Shown here: positions 13,341 through 35,003 of the stretch, one piece after another
Position numbering within the stretch: position 1 is the stretch's first letter
Layout: every line of letters begins with the position of its first letter
Assembly: GCF_009865215.1 (NCBI RefSeq)
Contig: NZ_WWJX01001420.1
Span: 1-49,990 of the forward strand
Length of the DNA stretch: 49,990 nt
Reading direction: 5' to 3'
From: Streptomyces sp. SID3343
GTDB lineage: Bacteria > Actinomycetota > Actinomycetes > Streptomycetales > Streptomycetaceae
The notes under the pieces: generated by a model
What the model saw: only the letters and a program-made list of their open reading frames with translations
What the model was told of the DNA's origin: nothing
Database searches by the model: none
Position numbers and translations under genes: made by a program

Positions 13341-13371
13341 ACGATAGTCATGTCCTGTGTACTGAGTCAAG
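13341..13371 (-). promoter_or_regulatory. Promoter of the pPIWI-RE operon, carrying the shared island element
   Basis: On the minus strand, -35 TTGACT (13370-13365), 18-base spacer and -10 TATCGT (13346-13341) form a good housekeeping-sigma promoter about 40 bases before the RecB-like gene. The -35 and spacer read CTTGACTCAGTACAC, which closely matches sequences upstream of drmA (34974) and the kinase pair (17231). Confidence 0.65.
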
Positions 13372-13462
13372 GCGCATAGCATTGGGCATGTGCGTATCGG
13401 TTTAGAGTGGGAGTCCGCCGAAAACCGGTCGTCCGATCTGCCGATACCGACTGTGAACAGCC

Positions 13463-15010
13463 ATGAAGAAGGCGAACATGAACGCTGGTGAAGTACTGGG
13501 CGGTCGATACCGCCTTGACGTGGTCCACGGGTTGGGGGGCGTCGCCACGCTCTACGCGGCCTACGACCTGCGCGAGAATCGCAAGGTCGCGGTCAAGATG
13601 CTCCGACCGGTCGACGATCTGATCGGAACCTGGATCGACCCGGACCATCCACATACGGGGGCCACCCAGCTTCGCAACCGGTTCCGCCGCGAAGGAAAAC
13701 TACTCAGGGAACTCGACTTCCCCGGCATCCCCGAGTTCTACGACCAGGGCGAGCATCAAGGCCGTCCGTACCTGGTCATGCGCTTCGTCGAAGGAAGCTC
13801 GCTGCGCGACCTGCTGAACCGGCGCCGCCCGCTGCCCGTGATCGCCGCTGTCGCGATCGCGGTCGGGGTCGGTGAAGCACTTGACTGTGCTCACACGATT
13901 CCTGTCGTGCACCGCGACGTGAAGCCGGAGAACATCATCATCGGCCCGGACGGCTGGGTCTTTCTGGTCGACTTCGGCATCGCGCTCCCGCTGCGCCCCG
14001 GTGCGACCCGCTACACCACGCACGGAACGACTCCGGGCAGTCTCGGCTACATGGCACCTGAGCAGATCCTCAACGGGCTGATCACGCCCCGGACCGACTG
14101 GTACGGGTTCGGCTGCCTGCTCTACGAACTCCTCCACGGCGACAAACCGTTCGCTCACGTACAGGGAGGACTGAGCATCGTTCAGGAGTACTTGACCGCG
14201 GAGCCCCGACCGCTGCCCGCGTCCGTACCGACCGAACTCGCTTCGCTGGCCATGCATTTGCTTGCCAAGGATCCGAACGATCGGCCGGCCGACGCCGGTC
14301 CCGTGCTGGCTGTGCTGCGCGGCTTTCTGCCCAGGGCAGGCGCTCTCGCGCCCAATCCCGGTCTCGTTCCCGATCCCACGTTGCGTTACCGGGAACCAAA
14401 TCGCCGGCTCGAAGCCGCAGCTCGCCCACGGGCCGGAGCAAGTGGCCGCGCGCCGGCACACCGGCGCACGACGTGGCTCAGCCGGCGAGAGGTCGAAGCA
14501 ATCGTGGTCGCCGCCGAAAAGGAGCTCGTGGTCGAGGAGCCGGGGCCGAGTACCCGCCGGGTGATCGAGATTCTCCCCGACGCCCGCCAGGACTGGGGTC
14601 TGCGCGAGCCGATCGTGGCCCGAGCACAGCTGGTCGCGGCCGACGGATCCCTGGTGGAAGGTGACCATCGGCGAGCCCCGGCCTGGTACGCGCAGCTGAT
14701 CGCCGAATTCGGTCGAGACCCGTCACCCTTCGGACGGGACATCGCGCTACGCGCCCGGGTAGGCGCCGCCGATTGCCTGCCGATGTTCGGCAAAGTGACG
14801 GAATCCTTCGAGCAGTGGACCCACATCGTGCACGACACCGCGGCGCTACCACAGCCGGCGTCGGTGGAGTTGCGGCGCCGAGTACACGCGCTCGGACACC
14901 ATTTCCGCGAACTCCGCGACCTGGGCTGTGCGAGCGAGGTCGACGAACTGCTCACGCTCGTGCCGCTCGACGATGACGACGCGTCCCGCGAGGATGCTCT
15001 CACCGAGTAG
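13463..15010 (+). CDS. Soluble serine/threonine protein kinase with C-terminal helical domain
   Basis: A 515-residue PknB-type kinase. The catalytic domain (residues 10-290) has the glycine loop GLGGVATLY, the VAIK lysine in VAVKML, catalytic HRD in VVHRDVKPENI, DFG in LVDFGIA and APE in YMAPEQ, so it should be active. No transmembrane segment follows, unlike membrane PASTA kinases. The C-terminal ~200 residues are helical and TPR-like, related in style to the third kinase at 18353. The ATG at 13463 has little ribosome site, while the in-frame ATG at 13478 has AAGAAGG five bases upstream and may be the true start. It is divergent from the pPIWI-RE operon and convergent with the methylase, placing it inside a kinase-methylase-kinase-kinase block. 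Confidence 0.92.
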   Translation: MKKANMNAGEVLGGRYRLDVVHGLGGVATLYAAYDLRENRKVAVKMLRPVDDLIGTWIDPDHPHTGATQLRNRFRREGKLLRELDFPGIPEFYDQGEHQGRPYLVMRFVEGSSLRDLLNRRRPLPVIAAVAIAVGVGEALDCAHTIPVVHRDVKPENIIIGPDGWVFLVDFGIALPLRPGATRYTTHGTTPGSLGYMAPEQILNGLITPRTDWYGFGCLLYELLHGDKPFAHVQGGLSIVQEYLTAEPRPLPASVPTELASLAMHLLAKDPNDRPADAGPVLAVLRGFLPRAGALAPNPGLVPDPTLRYREPNRRLEAAARPRAGASGRAPAHRRTTWLSRREVEAIVVAAEKELVVEEPGPSTRRVIEILPDARQDWGLREPIVARAQLVAADGSLVEGDHRRAPAWYAQLIAEFGRDPSPFGRDIALRARVGAADCLPMFGKVTESFEQWTHIVHDTAALPQPASVELRRRVHALGHHFRELRDLGCASEVDELLTLVPLDDDDASREDALTE

Positions 15011-15016
15011 CCGACC

Positions 15017-15064
15017 CGGGCGGGCTGCCGCGGGGCCACGGTCACGCGCGCGGCAGCCCGCCCG
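15017..15064. terminator. Long bidirectional hairpin between kinase and methylase
   Basis: Sixteen-base perfect arms, 15017-15032 and 15049-15064, surround a 16-base loop. The stem starts six bases after the kinase stop and runs into the last codons of the convergent methylase, whose stop at 15042 lies in the loop. It can stop transcription from both sides. Confidence 0.8.
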
Positions 15065-17126
15065 CCGACAACCCGTCGCTCAAGCCGCCGACCAGCTCAC
15101 GGCCGAGGCCGTCGACCTCGGCGAGTGTCCGCTCGAACGTCGCGAGTCGCCGAAACGCATCACCGTATCGACGCTGCTCGTCGAGCGGGAGACGAAGCAC
15201 GTGCAACCGGCGGACGTTGATCCGCGACGCCGTCGAGGCATGGGATCCCGCTTGCCGCCCGTTCGCCGGCGCCCGCAGACAACCGGCCACGAACCATGGA
15301 TCGAGTACCGACGGATCGGTACGCAGAGCGAACAGTTGCGGCCCCAACACGGTCGGAGCGTTCGTGTCCACCCACGCGTCGAAGGCGCGAGCGACACCCA
15401 CGACAATCACCTCGTCCGGCGCCGTCACCGTCAGCTTCTCGGCCGCTGCCGACACCTCGCCGATCGGCAACCATCCGGTCGATTTCCCGCGCTGCAGCAC
15501 ATCCTGGGCCGTGAGCACCGGTACGCCACCCGCCACGACGCCGCCGCCTCGGATGCTGCCCTCGGCCGGTGCCTGACCGGCCCGCAACTGCACCGCCGAG
15601 GCCCGCACGAGTTCGTCGATCGTGGTGGTCTGGGCAGACCCTCGCTCGAAGTCCAATTCGAGCCGGGCCAGCACCGAGGTAAGGTCCTGGAGCTCGTGCA
15701 GCAGCGAACCGAATCGACTCCACGACCGGCGCAGCCGCAGTCCCACCACCGCGGCTGCGGCCGGGACGTGCCGCGCGGGGGTGAGATCGACCTGTTCGTC
15801 GAGCAGATCGATGATCGGCACGGTCCTGGTGCCGATCGGCGCGTCGCTCTCGTTCCCTCGGCCACCGGCGGACGCCATCCCGGCCAGCACGACCTCGCGC
15901 AGGGCCGCCCAATCCATGCCGGCCTTGCCACCGCCCGAATGCTCGATGCGCACCTGTGTGGTGTCGACGAGCGTCAAGGTGGCGGCCTCCGGCGCCATCC
16001 GACCGTCATCCACCGGTTTGCGCAGTACCCACAGATGCAGCGAGACACCGTGCGGCGGCGCGGCGCCGGGCGGCAACGACACGACCGCGCGCAACGCCCC
16101 GGCGCGCAGCAACGCGGCCCTGACCCGGCGGCCCGCCCGACGGGAGGCCACCCCGGGAGGAAGCAGCAGCACCGCCGTCCCACCCGGGACGAGATGCGCC
16201 AGCGCGTGCTGAACCCAGGCCAACTCCGGTTCGGTGCGGGGCGGATGACCGTAGGTCCAGCGTGGGTCGGTGGCCAGTTCCTCGTGGCCCCAGTCCCGCT
16301 CGTTCGACGGAGGGTTGCTCAGCACCACATCGACGGCAGCGCCCGCCCAACGATCATCGCGCAGCGTGTCACCGACCCGGACATCCACACTCGGCACACC
16401 ACCGTCGAGCGTCGCGGCCGGCGCCACTCGCGCCGCCGCGAGCGCGGCGAGCACCGGATCGTTGTCCTGACCGAGCAATCGCAGCCGCCCACCATGGCTC
16501 TCCCGTTGTGCGGCGGCCAACAGCAGACTGCCGGTGCCGCAGGCCGGGTCCAGCACGGTCCGGGTTGCTCCTGTCGGAGGGCCTTGCCCCTCACTCTCGG
16601 CGCGCGCACGAACGTCGGCCTCCGCGATCTCGGCCATCAGGTCCGCGAGGGGCGCCGGGGTCGTGACGATCTGCCGCACATGCGCCCGCAGCCACCGATC
16701 CAAGAGGAAGCGGAACGTCTCGGCGCGTCCTTCGTCCTCCGCCAGTTGCAGCGCCTGCCGTACCAACCGCCGCGCGCCTTCGGGCAGCGGTACGGCGGAC
16801 GTGCCCCGATCCACATCGCCCTCGGGAAGGGAAGACGTGCCGACAGCGGCAATGGCCGCCCCCATGACGTCCCGGTCACCCAGCGCCTCGAACTGGGGCC
16901 ACAGCCAGTCCAGGTCACGCGCTTCCTCGCGGAGTTTTCCTTGGGCTCTCAACCAATCCTGCACGTCGTCGAGCGAGAAGAGCGGACTTATGTCCGTGCC
17001 CCCGGTCGGTGCGGGGAAGTTCGGGTGTCGACGACGCCAGTTGCTTACGGCCGCGCGGGTGACGCCCGCAATGCGCGCGATCTCCGCGAGTGTCACGGTG
17101 ACCGACGAATCGGCGGGGTCGGGCAT
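15042..17126 (-). CDS. N6-adenine DNA methyltransferase with N-terminal HTH and S-like C-terminus
   Basis: A 694-residue type I-like methylase. Residues 8-65 form a helix-turn-helix (LAEIARIAGVTRAAVSNWRR) of the MerR/AlpA style. SAM-binding motif I VLDPACGTGSLLL lies near 190 and motif IV VVLSNPPSNERDWG near 271. NPPS is unusual, since type I enzymes normally have NPPF or NPPY and the aromatic residue stacks on the flipped adenine. The C-terminal ~220 residues (LPIGEVSAAAEKLTV, LRLPLDEQRRYG) resemble an HsdS half-subunit target-recognition domain. No HsdR lies adjacent. GGAG six bases before the ATG supports the start. It faces the first kinase and diverges from the second, so it sits in the middle of a kinase cluster. 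It could methylate DNA as a self-mark or act as a sequence-specific sensor. Confidence 0.88.
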   Translation of the reverse strand: MPDPADSSVTVTLAEIARIAGVTRAAVSNWRRRHPNFPAPTGGTDISPLFSLDDVQDWLRAQGKLREEARDLDWLWPQFEALGDRDVMGAAIAAVGTSSLPEGDVDRGTSAVPLPEGARRLVRQALQLAEDEGRAETFRFLLDRWLRAHVRQIVTTPAPLADLMAEIAEADVRARAESEGQGPPTGATRTVLDPACGTGSLLLAAAQRESHGGRLRLLGQDNDPVLAALAAARVAPAATLDGGVPSVDVRVGDTLRDDRWAGAAVDVVLSNPPSNERDWGHEELATDPRWTYGHPPRTEPELAWVQHALAHLVPGGTAVLLLPPGVASRRAGRRVRAALLRAGALRAVVSLPPGAAPPHGVSLHLWVLRKPVDDGRMAPEAATLTLVDTTQVRIEHSGGGKAGMDWAALREVVLAGMASAGGRGNESDAPIGTRTVPIIDLLDEQVDLTPARHVPAAAAVVGLRLRRSWSRFGSLLHELQDLTSVLARLELDFERGSAQTTTIDELVRASAVQLRAGQAPAEGSIRGGGVVAGGVPVLTAQDVLQRGKSTGWLPIGEVSAAAEKLTVTAPDEVIVVGVARAFDAWVDTNAPTVLGPQLFALRTDPSVLDPWFVAGCLRAPANGRQAGSHASTASRINVRRLHVLRLPLDEQRRYGDAFRRLATFERTLAEVDGLGRELVGGLSDGLSAGGLPRA

Positions 17127-17230: not shown

Positions 17231-17250
17231 CTTGACTCAGTTCACGGGGG
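17231..17250 (+). promoter_or_regulatory. Shared island element upstream of the kinase pair
   Basis: The sequence CTTGACTCAGTTCACGGGGG contains a good -35 (TTGACT, 17232-17237) and matches the element before the pPIWI-RE operon at 13 of its first 14 positions. A convincing -10 is not evident; TATTGC lies somewhat too far downstream. The kinase start is about 95 bases downstream. Confidence 0.5.
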
Positions 17251-17332: not shown

Positions 17333-18262
17333 ATGCTCAAGGCCAAAGATCTTCTCCAGCATCGATACCGCCTCGACCAACCCCTCGCACGCGGATCCAT
17401 GGGCATGGTCTGGCAGGGCACCGACCAACACCTGGGACGCCCGATCGCGATCAAGGTGGTGCACACGTCCGAGTCCGGCGACGACGGTTCGCGGCTGCTC
17501 GCGCGCTTTCGCCGCGAGGCGGCGACGGCGGCCCTGCTGAATCACCCGAACATCGCCGGCGTGCACGATGCCGGCGCAACCGCAGACGGGATCTGCTGGT
17601 TGGTCATGCAGTTGATCGAGGGGGCGACCGTCGACTGTCTCTTGTCGGAACGCGGACCCTTCACCGTGGCCGCCGCCGCGGCAGTGGCCAGCCAGGTATG
17701 CGCCGGCTTGGCCGAGGCGCACAAACAGCAACTCGTCCACCGGGATCTCAAGCTCGCGAATCTCATGGTCGACCGGGCCGGATTGGTCAAGATCCTCGAC
17801 TTCGGGCTCGTCAAGCTGCTCGCCGAGCAGGCCACCCGACTCACCGTGACCGGCGAGAACGTCGGCAACGTGCTGTACGCGTCACCGGAACTCATCCGCG
17901 GCGACGACGCCCTCGACGGACGAAGCGACCTGTACGCGGTCGGCTGCCTGCTGCATCACCTGCTGACCGGGTCCGCGCCCTTCGCGCCCGAACCGCTGCC
18001 CCTGCTCGCGGGGCAGCACTTGCTCCGGGAACCGCCGACCCTCGCCGACTGCGGCATCGAGGTGCCGCCGCGACTTCAGGATTTGGTCCTCGCGCTCCTG
18101 GCCAAAGAACCCGGCGGACGTCCGGATTCGGCCGCGGCTGTGCATGCCGCGTTGGCCGAGTACGTGCCCTCCCCTCGCGTGGGGGGCGCCGCCTCCGGTA
18201 TCGCAGCCTCGGAAGACCCCTGCCGCCCGTTCCTGTTCCCTTTTGCCCCGCTGCCTGGTTGA
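17333..18262 (+). CDS. Minimal soluble serine/threonine protein kinase
   Basis: A 309-residue protein that is almost only a kinase domain. Glycine loop ARGSMGMVW, IAIKVV lysine, catalytic loop LVHRDLKLANLMV, ILDFGLV and YASPELI are all visible. The catalytic-loop proline is replaced by Leu (HRDLKLAN) and APE reads SPE; neither should abolish activity. No membrane segment, PASTA or TPR region follows, so it is shorter than its two neighbours. The ATG at 17333 directly precedes the fold; the ORF extends upstream through promoter-like sequence. It ends 90 bases before the next kinase and is probably co-transcribed with it. It may phosphorylate the neighbouring kinase or methylase, which is inference from context. 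Confidence 0.9.
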   Translation: MLKAKDLLQHRYRLDQPLARGSMGMVWQGTDQHLGRPIAIKVVHTSESGDDGSRLLARFRREAATAALLNHPNIAGVHDAGATADGICWLVMQLIEGATVDCLLSERGPFTVAAAAAVASQVCAGLAEAHKQQLVHRDLKLANLMVDRAGLVKILDFGLVKLLAEQATRLTVTGENVGNVLYASPELIRGDDALDGRSDLYAVGCLLHHLLTGSAPFAPEPLPLLAGQHLLREPPTLADCGIEVPPRLQDLVLALLAKEPGGRPDSAAAVHAALAEYVPSPRVGGAASGIAASEDPCRPFLFPFAPLPG

Positions 18263-18352
18263 TCGCTCGCTCGCGAGGCCACGCCGATCGCCGATCCATG
18301 CATCGATGCGAGGATCAGGCGCGAGAACGGACCGTAAGGGCGGGGTGACAGC

Positions 18353-19942
18353 GTGGCAAAAGCGCATGAACAGTACGAGCTGACCAACCAACTCGGCAAA
18401 GGTGGCATGGGGGAGGTCTGGCTCGCCTTCGACAAGCACTTGGACCGCAAGGTCGCCGTCAAGTTCATGTCCTCCCCGGCGACGGCCCGTTCCCTGCCCA
18501 CCGCTCAGGCACGATTTCGGCGCGAGGCACGTACGACCGCGCGTCTCGAACACCCGGGCGTTCCGACGGTGTACGACGTCGGGATCGACGGCGAGAGCCG
18601 GATGTTCGTGGTGATGCAGTACGTGCCGGGTCGCACCCTGGCCAAGGTCCTCAAGAAGCACGGCCGCTTCCCGGTGAGTTGGGCCGCCTCCGCCGCCGCC
18701 CAGATCTGTGAGGTGTTGACCTACGCCCACGGGCTCGGCGTGATCCACCGTGACCTCAAGCCCGCCAACCTGATGCTCACCCCGACCGGCAGCATCAAGG
18801 TGCTCGACTTCGGCATCGCGGCAGCGCTCGAACCCGAACCCGGGCCCGCGCTCACCGGGACGGGCGTGGTGACAGGCACTCCCGGCTTCGTGGCGCCCGA
18901 GCAGGTCATCTCCCAACAGGCGAGCCCCCGCAGCGACTTGTACGCCCTCGGCTGCGTCCTGTACGAACTCCTCGCCGGAGTACCGCCGTTCACGTCGGAG
19001 ACGCCGATGGGACTGCTGTACCTACATGCCAAGGAGAAACCGCAGCCGTTGTCCGAGCGCTGCCCGCATCTGCCGTCCGAACTCGCCGACCTGGTCATGC
19101 GACTCTTGGCCAAACTTCCGGCGGATCGTCCCGAGAGCGCCGAAGAGGTCAGCGCACTCGTAGCGGCCTGGATCGATTGGCCGGAGGCCCACCCGGGCGT
19201 AGCGGTCGAGTCCGCCCCCGCACCCGACGAGTACAACCCGACCATGCCGTACACGCGGAAATTCGCGGCCCGCCATCGGGTCGTGGCGGCGGAGCCGGAG
19301 CAGCCACACGTCGCGCCACCCGCTGATGTCATCGCGGCAGCGCCCGCAACGGCCGAGCCGGGGGCCGGGTCGGGGGCGGGGTCGGGGGCCGACCCCCGCC
19401 GAGCCCGGATCGATGAACTCGCGAGCAACGGCCGTTTCACCCAGGCTGCCGAGTTGTTGGGCGAGTTGCTGCTCGAACGCGGTGAAGGCCTCGATCCGGT
19501 CGACCCGACCTACGTCGCAGATCGACTGACCCTCCTCGGGTACCACCGGGCGGCCGGGCAGCTGCGGCCGGCGCTGGAGGGCTACACACGGCTCGGCGCC
19601 GAGCTGGCTGCCGTACGGCCGGCCACCGACTCGCAGGCGCTCGCGTGTCGCCTGGGTATCGCCCGATGCCTTCGCGAGTCGGGTCGAACCACCGAGGCCC
19701 TGGTGGCTTACGAGGAGCTGCTGCCGCTCCAGCGCCGGGCCTTCGGTCCGGCGGCACAGGACACGTTGAGCACTCGCTACGAGATCGCCGTCCTGCACGC
19801 GGGCGCCGGCTCGGTGGCGCTCGCCCGGCAACAGCTGGCTACCCTACGTGATGATCAGCACGCGGCGCTTGCATCGGGTGATCCCGCGCACGAACTCGTG
19901 GCCAGGCTCCTGGTCCGCCTGGAGCGACTGTCGCCCAACTGA
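18353..19942 (+). CDS. Soluble serine/threonine protein kinase with TPR-like C-terminus
   Basis: A 529-residue kinase starting at GTG with a GGGG-rich ribosome site. Catalytic features are textbook: LGKGGMGEVW, VAVKFM, VIHRDLKPANLML, VLDFGIA and FVAPEQ. After the kinase domain (about 1-270) comes a low-complexity linker with a PGAGSGAGSGAD run near 345, encoded by a short G-rich repeat, then about 180 residues of TPR-like helical repeats (FTQAAELLGELLLERG, ALVAYEELLPLQRRAFG). TPR domains usually bind proteins, so this kinase may sense a complex. No transmembrane helix. It lies 147 bases before drmD and downstream of a smaller kinase. Both share the pattern of kinase plus TPR with the gene at 13463. 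Confidence 0.92.
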   Translation: MAKAHEQYELTNQLGKGGMGEVWLAFDKHLDRKVAVKFMSSPATARSLPTAQARFRREARTTARLEHPGVPTVYDVGIDGESRMFVVMQYVPGRTLAKVLKKHGRFPVSWAASAAAQICEVLTYAHGLGVIHRDLKPANLMLTPTGSIKVLDFGIAAALEPEPGPALTGTGVVTGTPGFVAPEQVISQQASPRSDLYALGCVLYELLAGVPPFTSETPMGLLYLHAKEKPQPLSERCPHLPSELADLVMRLLAKLPADRPESAEEVSALVAAWIDWPEAHPGVAVESAPAPDEYNPTMPYTRKFAARHRVVAAEPEQPHVAPPADVIAAAPATAEPGAGSGAGSGADPRRARIDELASNGRFTQAAELLGELLLERGEGLDPVDPTYVADRLTLLGYHRAAGQLRPALEGYTRLGAELAAVRPATDSQALACRLGIARCLRESGRTTEALVAYEELLPLQRRAFGPAAQDTLSTRYEIAVLHAGAGSVALARQQLATLRDDQHAALASGDPAHELVARLLVRLERLSPN

Positions 19943-19963: not shown

Positions 19964-19999
19964 GTGAACTATGTAAACGATATGAGCGGCTGATATCGT
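19964..19999 (+). promoter_or_regulatory. Regulatory region of drmD: shared element plus 23-base palindrome
   Basis: GTGAACTATGTAAACGATAT at 19964-19983 matches the element before drmA and the dndB-like gene. The bases around it also read as nine-base direct repeats, TATGTGAAC then TATGTAAAC (19961-19978). Overlapping its end is the perfect palindrome ACGATAT (19977-19983), nine-base spacer, ATATCGT (19993-19999), a plausible repressor site. Confidence 0.5.
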
Positions 20000-20089: not shown

Positions 20090-23000
20090 GTGGCAAGGGT
20101 GCGAACGGCACGGCGCAGCGGTGCGACCGCCGACGCGGAGGCGTTGCCGGCGGAAGGCCAACTGGTCGAGGTCCGCGGACAGCATTGGGTGGTCTCCGGC
20201 GTCCAGGAATCCCCGGGGCCGGAAGCAGCCGACCCTGAAGCAGCCGAGTCCGAAGCGGCCGAGTCAGACGACTACTTCGGCACCATGGTTCAGCTGCAAT
20301 CCGTGGCCGACGGCCGCTATGGCGACACCTTGAGCGTCATCTGGGAAATCGAACCGGGCCGCCGCGTACTGCCGGCCGGTTCGCTGCCCGACGCGAGCAC
20401 CGGCCGCTTCGATCCCGCCGAGCGCGTCGCCGCGTTCCTGGACGCGATCCGCTGGTCGGCCGTCACCTCCGCCGACGTCCGTACCCTCCAGTCCCCGTTC
20501 CGCTCGGGCGTCGCCGTCGAGCCTTACCAACTGGAACCGGTGGACCGCGCCGTCAACGCCCCCCGGGTGAACCTCCTGCTTGCCGACGACGTCGGCCTGG
20601 GCAAGACCATCGAGGCCGGCCTGGTCGCCCAGGAACTGCTGCTCCGCGGCCGGGTCCGCCGCATCATGGTGGTCAGCCCGGCCGGCTTGACCCTCAAGTG
20701 GCGCGACGAGTTCGCGGAGAAATTCGGCCTCGACTTCACGATCGTCGACTCGGCCCGCTGCGCCGAGCTGCGCCGGACGCACGGCACCGCGGCGAACCCG
20801 TTCCGGGTGTACCCGCACACGATCGTGTCCCTGCCGTGGCTGCGCGGGGCGAAAGCCCAGCGCCTGCTCGACGAGGTCATTCCGGCCGGTGCGGGTGCGC
20901 ACGAGGACGGCGAACGCCGTCGCTTCTTCGACCTGCTCATCCTGGACGAGGCGCACCACGTCGCGCCGGCCGCCCCCAAGCAGGTGTACGCGGTCGACTC
21001 CCAGCAGACCAGGCTGATCCGTCGCATGGTCCCGCACTTCGAGCACCGGCTGTTCCTCTCCGCGACCCCGCACAACGGCTATTCCGAGTCCTATACCGCG
21101 CTGCTCGAACTCATCGACGACCAGCGCTTTACCCGCGGTATGGAACCCGACAAGGAAGCGCTCAAGGAAACGGTCGTCCGACGACTGAAGTCGGCGATCC
21201 GCAACCGGGACGAGAGTGAGCGCTTCCCGAAACGCCGGACCTTCGAGATGGAGGTCGAGTACACCGACCGCGAGCGCGAGATCCACGCCCTTCTCGGCCG
21301 CTTCGCACAGATGCGCCGCGCCAAGATGGCCCCCCAGGCGCGGGGTGGGCGTCGCGCGGCCGACCTGGTGACCCTGCTGCTCAAAAAGCGCCTGTTCTCC
21401 TCCCCCGCCGCTTTCGCCCGGACTCTGCGGGTCTACCTGGACGGTCTGGAGGAGGCGGGCCACGCTCGAAAGCCCCGGGTCGCCGCGACCGACGTACCGG
21501 ACTGGTTGGACGAGTTCTCCGACTTCGTCGCCGACTTGGACGACGAGGAGCTTGCCCGTGAAGAGGAGACGGCTCTCGGGATGAGCACCCGTCTCACCCC
21601 CGCCACGAGCGACGACGAGGTGGGCGTACTTCAGGACATGGAGCGCTGGGCCCTCACCCACGAGGCCACGGCCGATTCCAAGGCTCGAAAACTGCTGTCG
21701 TATATCAAGGCGATCTGCCATCCGGGCGCGCATTGGACCAACGAGCGCATCGTCGTCTTCACCGAGTACCGCGACACACAGAAGTGGCTGCTCGAACTGC
21801 TGCGTCAGGAAGGTCTCGCCGGCGGCGGCCGGATCGAACTGCTGCACGGCAGCCTCACGGCCGACGAGCGCGAACACGTGCGACTTGGCTTCCAGGCAGA
21901 GCCCAGTCGGCGAGAAGGCGTCGTCCGCATTCTGATCGCGACGGATGCGGCGAGCGAGGGCATCGACCTTCAGAAGTATTGTTGGCGGCTGGTCAATTAC
22001 GACATCCCGTTCAACCCGAACAAGCTCGAACAACGCATCGGCCGCATCGACCGCTGGGGTCAGCGCAACAACCCTGAGATCCGACACTTCGTGGGCTCCG
22101 GGTGGAAACAGGCTGCGGCGGGCTCCTACGAGGCCGACCTCGAATTCCTCTCCCGGGTGGCCAAGAAGGTCACGCAGATGGAGGCCGACCTCGGCTCGGT
22201 CAACGCGGTCCTGGCCGATGCCGTCCAGCGCCGGATGACCGACCCGCTGTACAACGTGGACATCGAGAACGCCACACCGAAGGCGATCCCGGGACGCAGA
22301 ACGGGTGGGACGGTAGCCCCCGAACAGAACGTCACCGCGCAGGTGAAGCGACTCGCCGACCAGTACGACTGGACGGTGGAAGCGCTCAGGCTGACCCCGG
22401 ACAACATCAAGCGCGTCGTGGACACGGCGTTGGCTCTGGACAATCAGCAGCCGTTGCGGCCGGCTGTGTTGTCGGACGCACTCTTCGACGGCCTGGACGA
22501 CAACCTCGACAGTGTCGACCCGACCGGGGCGCTGTTCGAGATCCCGCGGCTCACCGGCTCGTGGGAACGCGCCTCGCGCGGGTTGGTACACAAGCTCCGG
22601 CCGGACGAGCAGCGTCCGATCACCTTCACCCCGGCGATCGTGGCGGAGGGACGCGACGACGTGGTACTCGCTCACCTCAATCACCCACTCGTCGCGATGT
22701 CCACCCGCCTGCTTCGCGCGGCCGTATGGAGTTCCGACGCCGTCGGGCTGAGTCGAGTGTGTGCGGTGGTCAGCGACGATCCGGCGCTGGAGACGACTCT
22801 CGTCAGTGCGTACGCACGCTACGTCCTGGTCGGCGGCGACGGGATAAGGCTGCACGAGGAGATCCTGTACGCGGGCGGGTGGGTCCCGAAGGCGGGCAGC
22901 CGCTTCCGCCGGTGGGCAAGCGTGAACGAGCAGGGCCGTACGTTGGAAAAGGCATTGTCGTCGACGGGCCGGCCCGTGGCCGAACATCTGCGCAACGCCT

Positions 23001-23410
23001 TGGTGGAGGCCTGGCCCCGGGTACAGCAGCCGTTGTACGACTCGCTGCAAGCTCGCGCGAGGGAACGTCGAGACAGCCTGGTCACGGCCCTCGCGCAACG
23101 GCAGGAGCGGGAGGAGGCCCGGATGAACCACGCCTTCGACCGATTCGAGACGAACCTACGAAAGAAGTTGCGCGAGGAGGGCGAGGCCGAGGGCGAACAG
23201 TTCGCCCTGTTCCACACGCGCGAGATCACGACCGCCGAACAGCGTCAGTACCATGACGACCGGACTCGTTGGCAGCAGCGGCTCGACGCGAGCCCGGGGG
23301 AACGCGCTCGCGAAGCCGCAGTGATCACCGACCGCTATCACGAGCCTCGTGACCACGTCTTCCCCGTCGCTGTCGTCTTTGTCATCCCCCGTAAGGAGGC
23401 CATCCGATGA
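20090..23410 (+). CDS. drmD: DISARM SNF2-like helicase DrmD
   Basis: A 1106-residue SNF2-family DNA translocase. Walker A ADDVGLGKTIEAGL lies near residue 165, motif Ia VVSPAGLTLKW follows, DEAH box LILDEAHHV near 283, motif III LFLSATPHNGYSE near 320, and the C-terminal RecA lobe has VVFTEYRDTQKWL, IATDAASEGIDLQ and motif VI EQRIGRIDRWGQ near 648. A coiled, charged tail (about 1000-1080) follows. With drmMI, drmA, drmB and drmC on the same strand this is the helicase that defines class 1 DISARM. GTG at 20090 is chosen because GGAG lies nine bases upstream, although the frame opens earlier. Its TGA overlaps the drmMI ATG (ATGA). It has its own regulatory region upstream. Confidence 0.93.
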   Translation: MARVRTARRSGATADAEALPAEGQLVEVRGQHWVVSGVQESPGPEAADPEAAESEAAESDDYFGTMVQLQSVADGRYGDTLSVIWEIEPGRRVLPAGSLPDASTGRFDPAERVAAFLDAIRWSAVTSADVRTLQSPFRSGVAVEPYQLEPVDRAVNAPRVNLLLADDVGLGKTIEAGLVAQELLLRGRVRRIMVVSPAGLTLKWRDEFAEKFGLDFTIVDSARCAELRRTHGTAANPFRVYPHTIVSLPWLRGAKAQRLLDEVIPAGAGAHEDGERRRFFDLLILDEAHHVAPAAPKQVYAVDSQQTRLIRRMVPHFEHRLFLSATPHNGYSESYTALLELIDDQRFTRGMEPDKEALKETVVRRLKSAIRNRDESERFPKRRTFEMEVEYTDREREIHALLGRFAQMRRAKMAPQARGGRRAADLVTLLLKKRLFSSPAAFARTLRVYLDGLEEAGHARKPRVAATDVPDWLDEFSDFVADLDDEELAREEETALGMSTRLTPATSDDEVGVLQDMERWALTHEATADSKARKLLSYIKAICHPGAHWTNERIVVFTEYRDTQKWLLELLRQEGLAGGGRIELLHGSLTADEREHVRLGFQAEPSRREGVVRILIATDAASEGIDLQKYCWRLVNYDIPFNPNKLEQRIGRIDRWGQRNNPEIRHFVGSGWKQAAAGSYEADLEFLSRVAKKVTQMEADLGSVNAVLADAVQRRMTDPLYNVDIENATPKAIPGRRTGGTVAPEQNVTAQVKRLADQYDWTVEALRLTPDNIKRVVDTALALDNQQPLRPAVLSDALFDGLDDNLDSVDPTGALFEIPRLTGSWERASRGLVHKLRPDEQRPITFTPAIVAEGRDDVVLAHLNHPLVAMSTRLLRAAVWSSDAVGLSRVCAVVSDDPALETTLVSAYARYVLVGGDGIRLHEEILYAGGWVPKAGSRFRRWASVNEQGRTLEKALSSTGRPVAEHLRNALVEAWPRVQQPLYDSLQARARERRDSLVTALAQRQEREEARMNHAFDRFETNLRKKLREEGEAEGEQFALFHTREITTAEQRQYHDDRTRWQQRLDASPGERAREAAVITDRYHEPRDHVFPVAVVFVIPRKEAIR

Positions 23411-26400
23411 GCCAGTCCCCCGCCGCCGCAGGGCCCCGGCGCAATTTCGGCATGGCCGCGGCCATCGCCAAGGCCTCCGATGGGCGCAGTCAGCATTTGG
23501 ATTGGCTCAATCTGGCCGAGATCTCCGGGCCGTTCCTGACCTTGCCGGTGTTGTTGGGGGCTTGGCCACAGCTCGATTCGCTCGACAAGGAGCAGCGCCA
23601 ACTGCTGCGGCGGCGGCACGGCATGTGGCAGGCCGATCAGGTGGCCGGGCATGCGGAGTGGGTCGAGTACGTCCTCGGTGACCTGCTGGAATGGGGCGAC
23701 CGGCTGGCGCTGCGGGGTGCGGCTGCGGAGGGCGCCGATGCCGACGCGCCTTCGACCGATGCGCTTCTCGATCGGTTCACCCTGCCGGTGCCCGAGCACG
23801 ACACGGAGTTGCGAGCCGATTTCGCGCTGGTGGCGCCGGGCATCGAATTCGGCGAGTTGAAGGATGAGCCGGACGCCATTGCGGCGGCCAAGCACATCCC
23901 CCTTCTTGGCATGGTGCTGCCGCCGGGGACCCCGCCGACGGCTCGCCTGAAGACCGACGCATGGGCGGCGACGCCGGCCGACCGGCTCGCCAAGCTGTTG
24001 CGCCACCACCACGTGGACCTCGGCGTGCTCACCGACGGCCGCTGGTGGTGCCTGGTCTGGGCGCCGGTGGGCGGTGTCACCACGACGGTGGTCCTCGACG
24101 CGATCGACTGGAACCAGGTCGCGGACCGAAACGTGGTCCGCGCCTGGCTCTCGATGCTGCGCCGCGACCGTTTCTTTGCGGTGCCCGACGAGGAAACCCT
24201 GATCCCGCTGCTCAAGCGGAGCCTGGACAACCAGGAAGAGGTCACCGACGCACTCGGCGTCCAGGTCCGCCAGGCCGTCGAGCTGCTGGTGGACGCGATC
24301 CATCGCGCCGACCGGCGCGGTATGGAACAGGGTCGGCCGGGCCTGCACGCGCAGGGAGTGTCCGCGGCCGAGGTCTACCGGGGCGCGGTCGCGGTGATGA
24401 TGCGCGTCATCTTCCTGCTGGTCGCGGAAGAGCGTGGCCTGTTGCCGGCGGACAACGAGGTGTACGCGAAGTCCTATTCCGCGGGTCGCCTGGGCGCCGA
24501 GCTGGAGGCACACGCCGACGCGGAGGGCGAGAGCTCCCTCGACTACAGCAACGCGGCATGGCACCGCCTGATCGCGCTGTTCCACGCGGTCTACGGCGGC
24601 GTGAACCACCCGGAGCTACGGCTCCCGGCGTATGGCGGCTCGATCTTCGACCCACAGACTTACTGGTGGCTGGAGGGCAAAGCCGAGCCGGGCACGGAGT
24701 CGGCCGGCCGCGTCCCGTTGCTGGCGATCGACGACCGCACGGTGTTGCACATGCTGGCGTCGGTCCAGTACGTCACGATCGGCGGCGACCGAAAGGCCAA
24801 GTCCGCACGGCAGTTGGTGGCCGAGCAGAAGAAGAAGTCAAAGAAGACGGGCGAGCGCCGCAAACTGACGTTCCGGACGCTGGACGTCGAACAGATCGGC
24901 TACGTCTACGAGGGCCTGCTCTCCTACGACGCCCAACGGGCCGAGGACACGATGGTCGGTCTGATTGGCCCGCTGGGCAAGGAAAACGAGGTCGAGCTGG
25001 CCGAGTTGGAGCACTTGGCAGCTCCCTTCGGCGTCGGCTCGTTGGCGGCGCCGGGGGCAGCGGCGGACCTGAAGGGCTTGGCGAAAAAGATCGCCGAGAC
25101 CTTCAAGGAACCAAAGCCCGGCATCGGCTCAGCCGGTGCCATCGAGAAGGCCATCAGCCCTCTCCCCGACGACGAGGTAATCGACGCCGAACGCCGCCTC
25201 TACGCGAGCTGCCACGACCGCGACCTGGCGGACCGGTTGATGCCGTTCTACGGCATCATTCGGGCTGACTTGCGGGGATACCCAACAGTCATGGCCGGAG
25301 GCGCACTCTATGTAGCCGAGTCGTCTCTGCGTAAGAACACGGGCGCTCACTATACGCCGCGCTTCCTGGCAGAAGAGGTCGTCGAAGGCGCCCTTGAACC
25401 CTTGGTCTATGAACCGGGGCCCCTCCAAACGAAACACCAAGAAAAGTGGGTTCCGAAAACCGCCGATCAAATTCTGAGCCTCAAGGTCGCTGATATCGCT
25501 ATGGGCTCAGCAGCATTTTTGGTTGCTGCTTGTCGCTTTTTGGCGGACCGGCTCATCGAAGCTTGGGCGCGCGAGGGCTCAGCGGAAGCAGTCTCGTACC
25601 ATTCGACCCGCGACGTAGTGGACGAGGTAACCGCGGTCGATGCGGAAGCCGATCCAGTGCTGATTCACGCCCGCCGTCAGATCATCGAACACTGTCTATA
25701 CGGTGTGGATATCAACCCGCTTGCGGTCGAGATGGCGAAGTTGTCTCTGTGGCTGGTATCGATGGATCCGAAGCGCCCATTTAGCTTTCTCGACGACAGG
25801 CTGGTAGCGGGGGACTCGCTGTTGGGGATCTTTTCGTTGGAACAGCTAGAAACTGTACATATGCATGTTAGAGAAGGGCGTGCGCTACACGCAGGTGACC
25901 TGTTCGAATGGACGCAAGGAGCACGGACACGAGTCTCAGAAGTAGCCAAAGAGCGGAGGGCTATCACGGGAATAGAAGGAGACGATCTCGCCCGAGTGGA
26001 CGAGAAACGACGGCGTCTCGAATTGGCTCACCAACATATGGCACGGCTTGGATTGGTGGCAGACTTGGTCGCGGGTGCAGCCTTGGCTGCAACTGGAGTC
26101 AGCGAGGTGCAGCGTTCGCAGATACACACAAAGGCCGCCAGCATCGCGAATGACATCGCCGGTGAAGACCTGCTAGAAAGTTTCTCAGCCCTCGGAGAAG
26201 CACGGAAGCAAGCCATTGAATGGCTGGGCCAAGATCTCCCGGAGGGCAGTTTCCGTCGAGCCCCCGTTCACTGGCCACTCGAATTTCCGGAGGTTTTCGA
26301 ACAAGGCGGATTCGATGCCGTAATCGGTAACCCCCCATTTCTCGGAGGCCAAAAGCTTACAGGCGCAATGGGCGACGCCTACCGTGAATATTTGGTGAAG

Positions 26401-27831
26401 TCAATCGGACGTGGAAAACGCGGCAGCGCCGACCTAGTCGCCTATTTCGAACTCCGAGCTCATCAGGTGCTAAGCAAGAGAGGTCAAACTGGCCTTATTG
26501 CAACCAATACTCTCGCCCAAGGCGATAGCAGAGAGGTTGGGCTCGATCAGCTGGTTGCAGATGGCGTAGAGATCCGACAGGCCATTAAGAGCGCACCTTG
26601 GCCATCAAAATCCGCAGTGCTGGAATATTGTGCAGTATGGACCAGCGTACCAATTCTTTCGAAAGATGCCGGCCGGTATATTTCCGGCATTCCGACACTT
26701 TCCGGAATCTCGTCATCACTTGCACCAAAGTCGCGGATTTCCAGCTGGGCAGAGCCACTGAAGGAATTCGGGCGAACCTCGTTTATCGGATCCTACGTTC
26801 TCGGCATGGGGTTCATTCTGACGGAAGCCGAAGCGCTTTCGTGGATCGCCAAGGAACCGCGATATTCGGATATCCTTTTTCCATATTTCAACGGCTATGA
26901 TATCAACAATAGTGCTGACTATTCGAGCGATCGCTGGGTTATTGACTTCGGCGACCGGTGCGAAAAATGTGCTCAACGTTATCCGTTGGCGTACGAACGA
27001 GTCCTTGAGAAAGTTAAGCCGGAGCGTAATGCCAATAACCGCAAGGTTTACCGGGATTATTGGTGGCAATTCGGAGAAAAGAGGCCTGCCCTGACGCAGG
27101 CTTTGACCGGCCTAGACTCTTGTATCGTGATGGCCCTGGTAAGCAAGGCTGCCATGCCTGCATTGATGCCGACCGGTCGAGTATTCTCACACATGCTTGC
27201 CGTGTTCGCGTCTGATGATCGCGCCTTGCTGGCATATCTCAGCAGCGCCCTCCACTATTGGTGGGCGCTCGATCGAGCATCAACCATGAAGGGCGATCTC
27301 CGATACACCCCGTCTGACGTCTTTGAGACACTTGTGCGCCCCGGAATGAATGCAGATCTTCGAGACGCCGGGCGACGCTTGGATACCCATCGTCATCAGA
27401 TTCAAGAAAGTCGAAACATTGGACTTACTTCTGTATGTAACCTGATACACAGCAACGATTGCAGCGACGCCGATATCGTCGCCCTTCGTGCAATTCATCG
27501 TGATATCGACATTGCGACGGTCGAAGCGTACGGATGGGACGACCTTCTAGACACTCGTGGTGGTTTGGGGCACGGGTTTCACACCACCGATCAAGGGGTG
27601 CGGTATACTATCGACCTTGTTTCCCGAACAGAGATCGTCGACCGGCTTCGAGAAATGAACCACCAGCAATATGCTAATGAAGTCTATCTGGGTATGCATA
27701 AAAAGCCGACACGTCACGCGGATATGCCCTCCCCGTCGCTCGCCGCTCTCGATAAGGCGAAAAAAAGACCGACCATAGAGGTCGATTTTGAGGACGATGG
27801 ACTTTTTCGACCCGAGAATTCTCTCTTCTAG
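23407..27831 (+). CDS. drmMI: DISARM class 1 N6-adenine methyltransferase DrmMI
   Basis: A 1474-residue methyltransferase. The N-terminal ~640 residues include an REase-like region (FALVAPGIEFGELKDE near 140) and helical parts as in PglX-type enzymes. SAM motif I is VADIAMGSAAFLVAA near 695 (AMGSAAF in place of PACGSGAF), and motif IV is AVIGNPPFLGG near 973. A long target-recognition region follows. AAGGAGG eight bases before the ATG and ATGA overlap with drmD make the start firm. In DISARM this enzyme marks host DNA. Odd: from about 25440 to the end, base composition falls to roughly 50% G+C (hand counts 28/60 at 27001 and 30/60 at 26581, against 39/60 at 25141). The catalytic and recognition half thus looks recombined from another source. 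Confidence 0.92.
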   Translation: MSQSPAAAGPRRNFGMAAAIAKASDGRSQHLDWLNLAEISGPFLTLPVLLGAWPQLDSLDKEQRQLLRRRHGMWQADQVAGHAEWVEYVLGDLLEWGDRLALRGAAAEGADADAPSTDALLDRFTLPVPEHDTELRADFALVAPGIEFGELKDEPDAIAAAKHIPLLGMVLPPGTPPTARLKTDAWAATPADRLAKLLRHHHVDLGVLTDGRWWCLVWAPVGGVTTTVVLDAIDWNQVADRNVVRAWLSMLRRDRFFAVPDEETLIPLLKRSLDNQEEVTDALGVQVRQAVELLVDAIHRADRRGMEQGRPGLHAQGVSAAEVYRGAVAVMMRVIFLLVAEERGLLPADNEVYAKSYSAGRLGAELEAHADAEGESSLDYSNAAWHRLIALFHAVYGGVNHPELRLPAYGGSIFDPQTYWWLEGKAEPGTESAGRVPLLAIDDRTVLHMLASVQYVTIGGDRKAKSARQLVAEQKKKSKKTGERRKLTFRTLDVEQIGYVYEGLLSYDAQRAEDTMVGLIGPLGKENEVELAELEHLAAPFGVGSLAAPGAAADLKGLAKKIAETFKEPKPGIGSAGAIEKAISPLPDDEVIDAERRLYASCHDRDLADRLMPFYGIIRADLRGYPTVMAGGALYVAESSLRKNTGAHYTPRFLAEEVVEGALEPLVYEPGPLQTKHQEKWVPKTADQILSLKVADIAMGSAAFLVAACRFLADRLIEAWAREGSAEAVSYHSTRDVVDEVTAVDAEADPVLIHARRQIIEHCLYGVDINPLAVEMAKLSLWLVSMDPKRPFSFLDDRLVAGDSLLGIFSLEQLETVHMHVREGRALHAGDLFEWTQGARTRVSEVAKERRAITGIEGDDLARVDEKRRRLELAHQHMARLGLVADLVAGAALAATGVSEVQRSQIHTKAASIANDIAGEDLLESFSALGEARKQAIEWLGQDLPEGSFRRAPVHWPLEFPEVFEQGGFDAVIGNPPFLGGQKLTGAMGDAYREYLVKSIGRGKRGSADLVAYFELRAHQVLSKRGQTGLIATNTLAQGDSREVGLDQLVADGVEIRQAIKSAPWPSKSAVLEYCAVWTSVPILSKDAGRYISGIPTLSGISSSLAPKSRISSWAEPLKEFGRTSFIGSYVLGMGFILTEAEALSWIAKEPRYSDILFPYFNGYDINNSADYSSDRWVIDFGDRCEKCAQRYPLAYERVLEKVKPERNANNRKVYRDYWWQFGEKRPALTQALTGLDSCIVMALVSKAAMPALMPTGRVFSHMLAVFASDDRALLAYLSSALHYWWALDRASTMKGDLRYTPSDVFETLVRPGMNADLRDAGRRLDTHRHQIQESRNIGLTSVCNLIHSNDCSDADIVALRAIHRDIDIATVEAYGWDDLLDTRGGLGHGFHTTDQGVRYTIDLVSRTEIVDRLREMNHQQYANEVYLGMHKKPTRHADMPSPSLAALDKAKKRPTIEVDFEDDGLFRPENSLF

Positions 27832-30040: not shown

Positions 30041-30068
30041 CGGCACGCGTCGTTGATCGCCTGCGGGG

Positions 30069-30574: not shown

Positions 30575-30614
30575 GGATCGCCGGCCTCGGCTGGCGGTGG
30601 GGGCGGGGGGGATC

Positions 30615-31556: not shown

Positions 31557-31557
31557 G

Positions 31558-33556: not shown

Positions 33557-33606
33557 GGGAGCCATCTCGATTGCTGTGAACTTAGATAACGCATACGATG
33601 GCTCCC
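33557..33606 (+). promoter_or_regulatory. Inverted repeat enclosing the shared island element, before the dndB-like gene
   Basis: Perfect ten-base arms GGGAGCCATC (33557-33566) and GATGGCTCCC (33597-33606) enclose a 30-base AT-richer spacer holding GTGAACTTAGATAACGCATA (33576-33595), the element also found before drmD and drmA. As RNA the arms form a stem-loop that could end the ABC-3C transcript; as DNA they flank a promoter-like site. Confidence 0.55.
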
Positions 33607-33665: not shown

Positions 33666-34865
33666 ATGTCCACCTCCACGCCCGTACGCACCGGCCTCCC
33701 GGTCAACGTCAAGAAGCTTCGGGAGAAGGTGGCGATCGGCGTACTCGACTGGGAAAACCTGCTGGCGATCGTGAACGATCCCGAGGTCGTGGAGAAGTCC
33801 ACGTCCAGCAAGGTCGATCTTGGCCTGGAGGAGTACGCGGCGCTGCGCGCCGAAGTCCAGCGGCTGATCGGCAACAAGAGCAGCGCGAAGGCGAAGAACG
33901 TCGGTCCGTACGCGGACTACATCGCCGCCGGCTTGCGTGGGGAGTTCGGCGACGCGTGGTCGACCCCGCCGCTGACGCTGTGGTGCCCGCGCACGTTGAT
34001 CCTCAACGAGCAGGGCGACACGATGTTGCCGCTGCGCGACCAGATCATCGCGGTGGACGCGGAGACGCAGCTCACCGCGATGCACCGGATCCGGAAGAAC
34101 CGTCGGATCTACGGCCTCGAAGACACCGACTTCGCGGAGGTGTTGGTGGCCTTCGAGATCTACTGGGGCATCGGCACCGAGGACGCCCGTCAGATCTTCC
34201 ACGACCGCAACCTCAAGGGCGTCGCCGTCGACAAGAGCCTTGCCCTGTCCATGGACCAGCGCGACCTCGCCACCGTCATCACGCGGACGCTGGTCGACAA
34301 CACCATCGTCAGCACCGACGACGGAGACGCCCCGCTCGCCCGATTCGTCAACTCCAGCAAGCGTCAGCTCAGCGTCAACGCGACCGAGTGGGTCACGCTG
34401 TCGGCGGTCCGTTCGATGGTCGTCACCACGATGCTCGGCAAGTCCGGGATCGGCGCGACCTCGGGCACCGTGGACTTGGACAACCTGCCGGATGGGCTCA
34501 GTGAGCAGGAGGTCACCCAGGAGGTCGTCGGCGCACTGTCCGCGATCGTGCGTACGCTGACCGATGCGTTCGAGACCCGTTCCGCGATCACCGCTCCCGC
34601 CGTACTCGCGGGCTTGGGCGCGGCAGCGCACCGAACGATGCCGTGGGCCGAGGACCTGCTTCCCCCGCACCTCGATTTCCTGGGGTTGCTGTCCGAGATC
34701 CACTGGGAGCGGGAGGCGAAGTACTGGGATGGCGTGGCCGCCAAGGTGAGCGCCGCCAAGGGGTTGTCGTTCGCCGGTGGCGCCAAGGACTCCGGCTACC
34801 GCGTCTGCGAGGCCCTCCTGAACCCCCAGTCCGAGGCCGGCCGAAAGATCCGCGGTCGCAGCTGA
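33666..34865 (+). CDS. DndB-like DGQHR-family protein
   Basis: A 399-residue protein related to DndB and the DGQHR-domain family. The motif region reads IIAVDAETQLTAMHRI with Asp131; compared with DGQHRLEA, the Gly is Ala and the QHR is altered. The following AFEIYWGIGTEDARQIFHDRN and GVAVDKSLALSMDQRDL match the family's second half (EARQLF, D.N, KGKPVSKSL, D.RD). DndB normally regulates phosphorothioation in dnd clusters, but no dndC, dndD or dndE is in this window. GGGGAA five bases before the ATG is the ribosome site. Its own terminator and the shared island element mark it as a separate unit controlled like drmA. Probably a DNA-binding regulator or a DISARM accessory. Confidence 0.75.
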   Translation: MSTSTPVRTGLPVNVKKLREKVAIGVLDWENLLAIVNDPEVVEKSTSSKVDLGLEEYAALRAEVQRLIGNKSSAKAKNVGPYADYIAAGLRGEFGDAWSTPPLTLWCPRTLILNEQGDTMLPLRDQIIAVDAETQLTAMHRIRKNRRIYGLEDTDFAEVLVAFEIYWGIGTEDARQIFHDRNLKGVAVDKSLALSMDQRDLATVITRTLVDNTIVSTDDGDAPLARFVNSSKRQLSVNATEWVTLSAVRSMVVTTMLGKSGIGATSGTVDLDNLPDGLSEQEVTQEVVGALSAIVRTLTDAFETRSAITAPAVLAGLGAAAHRTMPWAEDLLPPHLDFLGLLSEIHWEREAKYWDGVAAKVSAAKGLSFAGGAKDSGYRVCEALLNPQSEAGRKIRGRS

Positions 34866-34877
34866 GTGGTGGATGCC

Positions 34878-34930
34878 GCGCAGCCACGTGTCTTCACCCC
34901 CGATTCGGTGGCGAAGACACGCGGCTGCGC
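34878..34930. terminator. Strong hairpin terminator after the dndB-like gene
   Basis: Eighteen-base arms (34878-34895 and 34913-34930) pair at 17 of 18 positions with a 17-base loop, starting 12 bases after the dndB-like stop. There is no U-tract. It separates that gene from drmA. Confidence 0.8.
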
Positions 34931-34973
34931 CGGTTCCGAGGCACATCTGCGGACGACAGCACATCTGAGACTT

Positions 34974-35003
34974 GTGAACTCAGTACACGAATGTCATGAT
35001 AGT
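34974..35003 (+). promoter_or_regulatory. drmA promoter with the shared island element
   Basis: GTGAACTCAGTACACGAATG (34974-34993) shares CTCAGTACAC exactly with the pPIWI-RE promoter. TGAACT (34975-34980) as -35, a 17-base spacer and GATAGT (34998-35003) as -10 make a plausible promoter. Transcription would start near 35010, leaving about 90 bases of leader before drmA. Confidence 0.6.

Follow-up and report, generated by a model that had tools for sequence, protein, structure and literature searches.

A palindrome of 15 bp in the divergent promoter region of the methyltransferase M.SsoII is bound by the N-terminal domain of this protein; the protein represses its own gene and stimulates its partner (PMC6100179). 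At the level of a whole defence island, RptR has been described as an autoregulated repressor that acts on an island of several systems and whose binding site is conserved (PMC12255303). Here we analyze a defence region of Streptomyces sp. SID3343 that lies in a window of 49,990 bases, the whole of contig C633 of an 11.06-Mb genome, and carries pPIWI-RE, Ser/Thr kinase, and DISARM genes. Five intergenic regions in it share a 15-bp nearly palindromic element, and one gene encodes an N-terminal helix-turn-helix (HTH) joined to a methyltransferase (hereafter, HTH-methyltransferase). We consider it likely that the element is the operator of the HTH-methyltransferase family and that the protein controls its own promoter together with the island promoters, probably as a repressor. 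To our knowledge, the joint switching of separate anti-phage systems in one island is largely an open question, and the regulators known to us (C proteins, BrxR/CapW, RptR) for the most part act on a single system or a single promoter. A specific protein, a 15-bp site, and a proposed multi-system regulon can now be named, and therefore the question becomes directly testable.

Putative operator copies in the island

The window contains five intergenic GTGnACTnAGTnnAC-like copies in core-promoter positions, which share the form of an imperfect dyad, GTGAACT-n-AGTnnAC. A preliminary description of this DNA had reported the five sequences, and each was found at the place given there. All are intergenic with the start codons chosen by us, namely 17333 for the kinase (open reading frame, ORF, from 17225), 20090 for drmD, and 35103 for drmA. 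The putative operators and the gene of the proposed regulator are as follows.

34974..34988, plus strand: O-drmA, GTGAACTCAGTACAC, 114 nucleotides 5' of drmA
19964..19978, plus strand: O-drmD, GTGAACTATGTAAAC, 111 nucleotides 5' of drmD
17231..17245, minus strand: O-MT, GTGAACTGAGTCAAG on the minus strand, 104 nucleotides 5' of the HTH-methyltransferase gene
13357..13371, plus strand: O-kin1, GTGTACTGAGTCAAG, directed toward the kinase at 13463, 91 nucleotides 5' of it
33576..33590, plus strand: weaker operator GTGAACTTAGATAAC before the DndB-like gene, scoring 12.9 with the drmA-only matrix and 14.3 with the second matrix
15042..17126, minus strand: HTH-methyltransferase, proposed regulator, 694 residues with a short HTH, an N6_Mtase domain, and a specificity-like C-terminus

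O-drmA overlaps the -35 sequence TTGTGA (34972-34977), and a -10-like CATGAT (34995-35000) follows with a spacer of 17. O-MT also lies 87 nucleotides from the divergent kinase pair, and its plus strand shows CTTGACT. The minus strand of O-kin1 likewise carries CTTGACT, here as a -35-like sequence for the pPIWI-RE operon, 64 nucleotides 5' of 13292. All copies had been described as correctly oriented toward the downstream units, but orientation weighs little because the site is nearly palindromic. Moreover, the asymmetry of the 13357 copy points to the kinase at 13463 and that of the 17231 copy to the gene 15042-17126, rather than to the pPIWI-RE operon and the kinase pair. The assignment of O-kin1 to kinase 1 alone, based on this asymmetry, was undone in turn by the -35-like CTTGACT on the opposite strand. 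Thus, the divergent sites at 13357 and 17231 cannot be assigned to one unit alone.

The copies were scored with a matrix of nine drmA promoter sites, all from other genomes (drmA-only matrix). The score of O-drmA, 26.8, is not an independent success because the matrix includes its orthologues, whereas the scores of the other four (22.7, 21.6, 19.9, and 12.9, the last for the site at 33576) are independent. Dinucleotide shuffles of the window (200) contained on average 0.04 matches scoring at least 19 and 0.6 scoring at least 12.9. The site at 33576 is likely real but is the weakest of the five. It is plausible because just 0.03 matches of at least 12.9 are expected across the 16 intergenic regions (1,984 bases; 60 shuffles); however, a chance place at 2856, on the stop codon of adh, outscores it (13.4 vs. 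12.9). No orthologous promoter of the 33576 site was seen among the mapped islands. A match at 13880 (15.5 with the second matrix) is inside kinase 1 and was regarded as chance. The pattern GTGAACTNAGTANAC with at most 3 mismatches, derived from the tested sites themselves, has 10 matches in the window (six places on both strands, the sixth being 2856) against 3.28 expected, a count reached in none of 100 shuffles.

In the complete genome, four of the nine matches of GTGWACNNWGTMMAN lie in the window, two precede the other two HTH-methyltransferase genes, two are in a repeat, and one is at C499. All three HTH-methyltransferase genes found in this genome have the upstream element. As far as tested, the element is not equally frequent before unrelated genes, with four of the nine matches being in the window. 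Several other patterns and places were discarded. With one mismatch allowed, the genome pattern gave 40 matches vs. 37 in the control, mostly chance, and was dropped as a measure of enrichment; the exact GTGWACTNAGTWCAC was present in one of the four genomes of the genus sample and is too strict as a genus-wide pattern. Sites on C1138, C1519, C1256, and C887 fall within called ORFs and were discounted as chance matches, and an apparent double operator at C749:2351/2410 is actually a tandem repeat. In this place (G000 C749:2351-2424, L026), tandem GTGAACCGAGTACAC-like repeats imitate the operator. At G000 C499:6381 (L143:1500), the operator-like GTGAACCATGTCAAC adjoins genes related to neighbors of standalone HTH-methyltransferase loci; an HTH-methyltransferase was not recognized in the 3 kb around it.

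Association with the HTH-methyltransferase family

The link between the element and the gene was analyzed in 54 upstream regions from 57 loci fetched by protein similarity. Two duplicates (L048, L063) and L053, the one locus of the 57 without a recognized HTH start, were dropped; the pattern-fetched loci L066-L095 were excluded because their inclusion would be circular. A site scoring at least 14 with the drmA-only matrix is present within 300 nucleotides 5' of 43 of the 54 distinct HTH-methyltransferase genes, compared to 0.4% in shuffles. By source, these are 24 of 27 genes in a family-wide sample (L096-L122) and 19 of 27 in genomes chosen for a drmA or motif match (L036-L065). A count of 67 of 77, which includes the pattern-fetched loci, is not taken as evidence of enrichment.

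In the opposite direction, the pattern TGTGAACYNNGTCAACNNG, which was modelled on promoter sites of the family, has 32 matches in 121 family genomes and none in the reversed control. Among the 31 matches examined (G024:C11 was left out), 26 are followed by the HTH signature within 700 nucleotides downstream on the same strand, and two further ones lie before drmA (L077, L093). The three remaining matches (L078, L079, L163) have neither an HTH-methyltransferase nor drmA assigned; at two of these places, as observed in L163 and L164, the match overlaps a called ORF.

Relatives of the protein at E <= 1e-20 are present in 21 of the 22 genomes searched, which were chosen for a drmA or motif match and in which G013 and G300 look like one genome counted twice. 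Methyltransferase relatives at E <= 1e-40, counted irrespective of the HTH, occur in 97 of 121 family genomes. In 8 of 9 standalone loci (L152-L160, picked from pattern matches) a kinase-TPR gene adjoins the methyltransferase gene. The link between the element and the HTH-methyltransferase is present in sequences both with and without DISARM; the existence of standalone loci and the differing gene neighborhoods argue that it is more than hitch-hiking. The standalone loci, which are in Streptomycetaceae genomes, also often contain a GmrSD_C gene like that at 2893-3663 of the window.

Recurrence in related islands

A search for drmA across genome contigs yielded 18 loci, 12 from Streptomyces/Streptacidiphilus and six from Streptosporangiales. 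The element is observed about 70-110 nucleotides 5' of drmA in 9 of the 12 former loci and was not found there at L015, L017, and L022; the genomes of these three (G304, G306, and G311) have a standalone-like HTH-methyltransferase or no relative.

Promoter layouts were mapped in nine stretches around methyltransferase relatives and six more (L166-L171) with a second matrix, partly trained on methyltransferase-promoter sites and containing no kinase 1 or drmD sites. DISARM genes are present in 8 of the 9 stretches, G302 having none in view. The gene order recurs in whole or in part, comprising the kinase 1/pPIWI-RE cluster, methyltransferase/kinase 2-kinase 3, drmD-drmMI, and drmABC, and copies of the element are found again in the corresponding gaps. 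The divergent gap between kinase 1 and PprPDDEXK has a site in all eight relatives showing the pair (G218, G303, G297, G298, G301, L168, L169, L170), and the gap between kinase 3 and drmD in 5 of 8 Streptomycetaceae islands (G020, G218, G299, G297, G301), some of these sites being perfect dyads. The drmA-upstream site is additionally present in G020, G218, and G106. The own promoter of the methyltransferase gene has a site in 9 of 9 mapped stretches and in 6 of 6 of L166-L171, a partly circular count with the second matrix. Orthologous promoters share ancestry, so these counts are not independent events; as far as tested, the element is conserved before orthologous operons, being kept in other islands. 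The proposed regulon recurs in Streptomycetaceae, and a related drmD element is observed in Streptosporangiales, where drmA is within the operon: it precedes drmD in four of the six loci (L016, L020, L024, L025; scores 14.1-19.1), L016 and L025 being close relatives. On visual inspection, a weaker drmD element is present in L019 and only half of one in L021. Outside Streptomycetaceae, L065, L055, L195, and L198 have a different upstream element, approximately CTTGTGAAGTnnnTCAACCAATGnTTTAC, on the opposite strand; read by eye, variant elements outside this family look as if they change along with the HTH.

The position of the element relative to promoter boxes differs between classes. In the drmA class, the dyad covers the -35 and extends into the spacer, and 11 of 13 rows show a -10-like nATnnT at a spacing of 17 bp; such a position is where a repressor would sit. 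At the own promoters of the methyltransferase genes, 9 of 15 rows have a TAGnnT/TAATCT-like box downstream of the site, which the window promoter lacks. At kinase 1 promoters, an TTCACGCTACTCTG-like box lies about 37 nucleotides past the site.

The HTH-methyltransferase protein

The HTH occupies approximately residues 10-62 and the N6_Mtase domain residues 156-374 (PF02384, E 7.8e-30), with DPACGTG as motif I and NPPS as motif IV. Relatives of the methyltransferase part in PDB are chains similar to type I M subunits. For the N-terminal HTH, no sequence family matched above the cut-off, the HTH_17 profile (E 0.0099) being below it. A model of the HTH has a mean predicted local distance difference test score (pLDDT) of 80, and its first 25 Foldseek matches include CarA/CarH, MerR-family regulators, RdfS, and BldC (best E 0.023, probability 0.97; probabilities 0.87-1.0 for MerR-type matches). 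The full-length AlphaFold model (mean pLDDT 51) was consulted solely for the order of elements within the HTH. Conservation within the protein is highest in the HTH, with a mean pairwise identity of 0.73 vs. 0.60 and 0.52 for the other parts.

Motif IV of active N6-adenine methyltransferases follows the consensus [DNS]PP[YFW]. The NPPS of the window protein keeps the Asn but has no aromatic residue. In 62 family proteins, the motif is NPPF in 18, NPPS in 5 (including the window), DPPF in 3, HPPF in 24, and of other forms in 12; the DISARM forms of Streptosporangiales have VPPF, IPPF, or IPPY. Thus, [ND]PP is seen in 26 of 62 members, a set whose 7 proteins from pattern-picked loci, none with [ND]PP, raise the count of broken motifs, and in 26 of 51 with protein-fetched loci only. 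Because of the departure of motif IV from the consensus, many members should be inactive, and many do look catalytically dead by sequence.

Proposed mechanism and alternatives

We infer direct binding and the following course of regulation. The product of gene 15042-17126 would bind the operator via its N-terminal MerR/excisionase-like winged HTH, probably as a dimer with one HTH head per half-site, and would regulate its own promoter. In DISARM/pPIWI-RE islands, the targets would be the kinase 1/pPIWI-RE, drmD-drmMI, and drmA-B-C promoters and some cargo genes. Repression through blocking of RNA polymerase is the likeliest sign, because at the drmA promoter the site extends over both the -35 and the upstream end of the spacer; at kinase 1 promoters, activation is possible because of the distance to the TTCACGCTACTCTG-like box. 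Release may occur in response to a signal linked to phage, which the methyltransferase domain, the partner Ser/Thr kinase, or both would read. A more elaborate scenario, which we regard as rather improbable, is that a type I methyltransferase turned transcription factor holds the DISARM, pPIWI-RE, and kinase units down, with its degenerate methyltransferase body serving as a decoy sensor; all units would be switched on when phage DNA-mimic anti-restriction proteins, loss of S-adenosylmethionine, or phosphorylation by the partner kinase releases it.

Several observations speak against an operator of the HTH-methyltransferase. The total of GTGWACNNWGTMMAN matches in the genome is not enriched (9 vs. 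6 in the reversed control), and 11 of the 54 protein-fetched members have no upstream site of at least 14 within 300 nucleotides. At the methyltransferase promoters of G299 and G301, the drmA-only matrix gives 10.3 and 11.4, both below 14. No site of at least 14 precedes drmD in G298, G106, and L169, three of the eight islands with kinase 3 and drmD in view, and G304 and G306 have lost the drmA site while a standalone-like HTH-methyltransferase with its operator is retained. Relatives outside Streptomycetaceae mostly have variant elements or none found. The distance from the kinase 1 sites to the conserved TTCACGCTACTCTG box is greater than expected of an operator that simply overlaps the -35. 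On the protein side, no Foldseek match of the HTH model has E < 0.001, and the intact RAAVSNWRRR helix of 60 of 62 proteins is a figure inflated by selection, because an AVSNWR-like expression had served to choose them.

The sign of regulation could also be the opposite, with the HTH-methyltransferase binding as a MerR-type activator, which we find doubtful. MerR activators occupy the spacer between -35 and -10, and both the MerR-like HTH and the location of kinase 1 sites upstream of a conserved -10-like box agree with this. However, MerR-type sites have a spacer of 19-20 bp, whereas the drmA class has 17 bp between the TTGTGA-like -35 and nATnnT, and the drmA site covers the -35 itself, with no MerR-type distortion needed. 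Alternatively, the HTH-methyltransferase may be merely a target of another DNA-binding protein of the island, such as the WhiJ-like XRE-DUF5753 protein (28107-29060), which has a clear HTH and is encoded between drmMI and drmA in 5 of 8 DISARM islands (G020, G218, G303, G298, G106; weakly G299). This is improbable: in a BLAST search against the window proteins, XRE-DUF5753 was not seen within 11-12 kb of the nine operator-bearing standalone loci L152-L160, nor in the four loci of Streptosporangiales that have a drmD site, and in G020, G218, G303, G298, and G106 the gap immediately 5' of its gene contains no site of at least 14.

The preliminary description had proposed that one regulator or sigma factor co-ordinates pPIWI-RE, kinases, and DISARM. 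One trans-acting factor for the three is supported, and the likely regulator is the HTH-methyltransferase gene, which was not named there; the sigma factor is disfavored. If an alternative sigma factor recognized the element as a promoter class, with no dedicated operator protein, the overlap with -35-like sequences and the comparable spacing of a -10-like box within some classes would be accounted for. This reading is nevertheless very unlikely, because both half-sites are conserved, the right one within the spacer, and some drmD promoters have a perfect GTGAACTATGTTCAC dyad; the perfect dyad GTGAACTAAGTTCAC also occurs. In addition, the -10 varies among classes, and the pattern matches just 9 times in 11 Mb. 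There is equally little probability that the element is a methylation target of the HTH-methyltransferase and that any regulation proceeds via promoter adenine methylation. Type I-like methyltransferases recognize bipartite sites, the element has adenines, and motif IV of the window protein retains its Asn; but the operator is also found before members with HPPF, and it is rare, whereas methylation targets are expected to be frequent in a genome. The operator of a repressing HTH-methyltransferase thus remains our preferred explanation.

Gene content of the window

Profile searches with window proteins revealed the pPIWI-RE operon (minus strand), a kinase, the methyltransferase gene (minus strand), the kinase pair, and drmD-drmMI, followed by an XRE-DUF5753/HATPase pair, RAMA and ABC-3C cargo, the DndB-like gene, drmABC, and an Hhe/MTES-like helicase. 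The units are as follows.

3732..13292, minus strand: pPIWI-RE operon, with PprPDDEXK 11565-13292, Y/REase 10402-11568, Z 6693-10409, and pPIWI-RE 3732-6665
13463..15010, plus strand: Ser/Thr kinase 1
17333..19942, plus strand: kinase pair, with kinase 2 17333-18262 and kinase 3 with TPR 18353-19942
20090..27831, plus strand: DISARM class 1 part 1, with drmD 20090-23410 and drmMI 23407-27831
33666..34865, plus strand: DndB/DGQHR-like gene
35103..41610, plus strand: DISARM part 2, with drmA 35103-38936, drmB 38882-40840, and drmC 40837-41610

The pPIWI-RE, Z, and Y/REase genes of a three-gene island are all present (PF13111, PF13032, PF18157, PF18155, PF18156, PF18154; PADLOC), and so are drmD, drmMI, drmA, drmB, and drmC of a class 1 DISARM. 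Between drmMI and drmA there is a WhiJ-like trio of XRE-DUF5753 (28107-29060, minus strand), a small ORF at about 27900-28110 (minus strand), which we take to be DUF397-like by resemblance, and HATPase (29097-29570, plus strand). The same slot holds RAMA-domain genes and a two-gene ABC-3C set (29330-33550). In some relatives it contains other cargo with an operator-like site in front, namely genes of 526 and 570 amino acids without a Pfam match and a GajB-like UvrD helicase. At L139:17007-18158, within a DISARM island, a protein resembling the DNA polymerase III beta clamp carries a fused MerR-type HTH.

Comparison with known systems

Judging by titles and the beginnings of abstracts, the entries listed from the open-licence literature on DISARM, defence-island regulation, and pPIWI-RE included no account of this operator or regulator. 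The nearest known island regulator found is RptR, which is unrelated in form: it is a small all-helical protein without a methyltransferase domain that acts on TAGCTA repeats at an E. coli island promoter. The WYL regulators BrxR and CapW are likewise HTH regulators dedicated to defence loci, but they have a WYL domain and are reported for BREX and CBASS systems (PMC9122589, PMC12255303). A DISARM structure paper mentions constitutive DrmAB expression (PMC9142583), which may not hold in the present island.

PADLOC profiles mad1 and mad2 match the HTH and methyltransferase parts, respectively, and mad6 matches the kinases. In the MADS system, mad1 is an HTH protein, mad2 a methyltransferase, and mad6 a kinase; in the window, the mad1- and mad2-like parts form one polypeptide. 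Among 13 window proteins, PADLOC gave matches to mad1, mad2, mad6, and, weakly, mad8 only, rather than to a full mad1-mad8 set, and no paper on the MADS system itself was found in the open-licence literature searched. CarA/CarH and BldC, with a MerR-type HTH, are among the first fold matches of the HTH model but differ from the window protein in the C-terminal domain; in CarH, an HTH of this type is joined to a domain that binds a ligand. Our data suggest that a common methyltransferase family of Streptomycetaceae is largely regulatory and that the kinase/HTH-methyltransferase module is a part of an extended DISARM.

The closest parallel is M.SsoII/M.Ecl18kI, in which an N-terminal HTH with a regulatory role is fused to a DNA methyltransferase (PMC6100179; see also PMC3978073 and PMC3695355). 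As with M.SsoII, a 15-bp (near-)palindromic site lies in the own promoter or divergent gap, and partner defence genes would be controlled. However, M.SsoII is a C5-cytosine methyltransferase of a two-gene restriction-modification system with the site AGGACAAATTGTCCT, whereas the window protein has an N6_Mtase domain (PF02384) of type I-like character and a MerR-like HTH, belongs to a family with many broken motifs IV, and would serve up to five promoters of several systems. Thus, judging by its anatomy, the HTH-methyltransferase would work like M.SsoII without being a member of that family.

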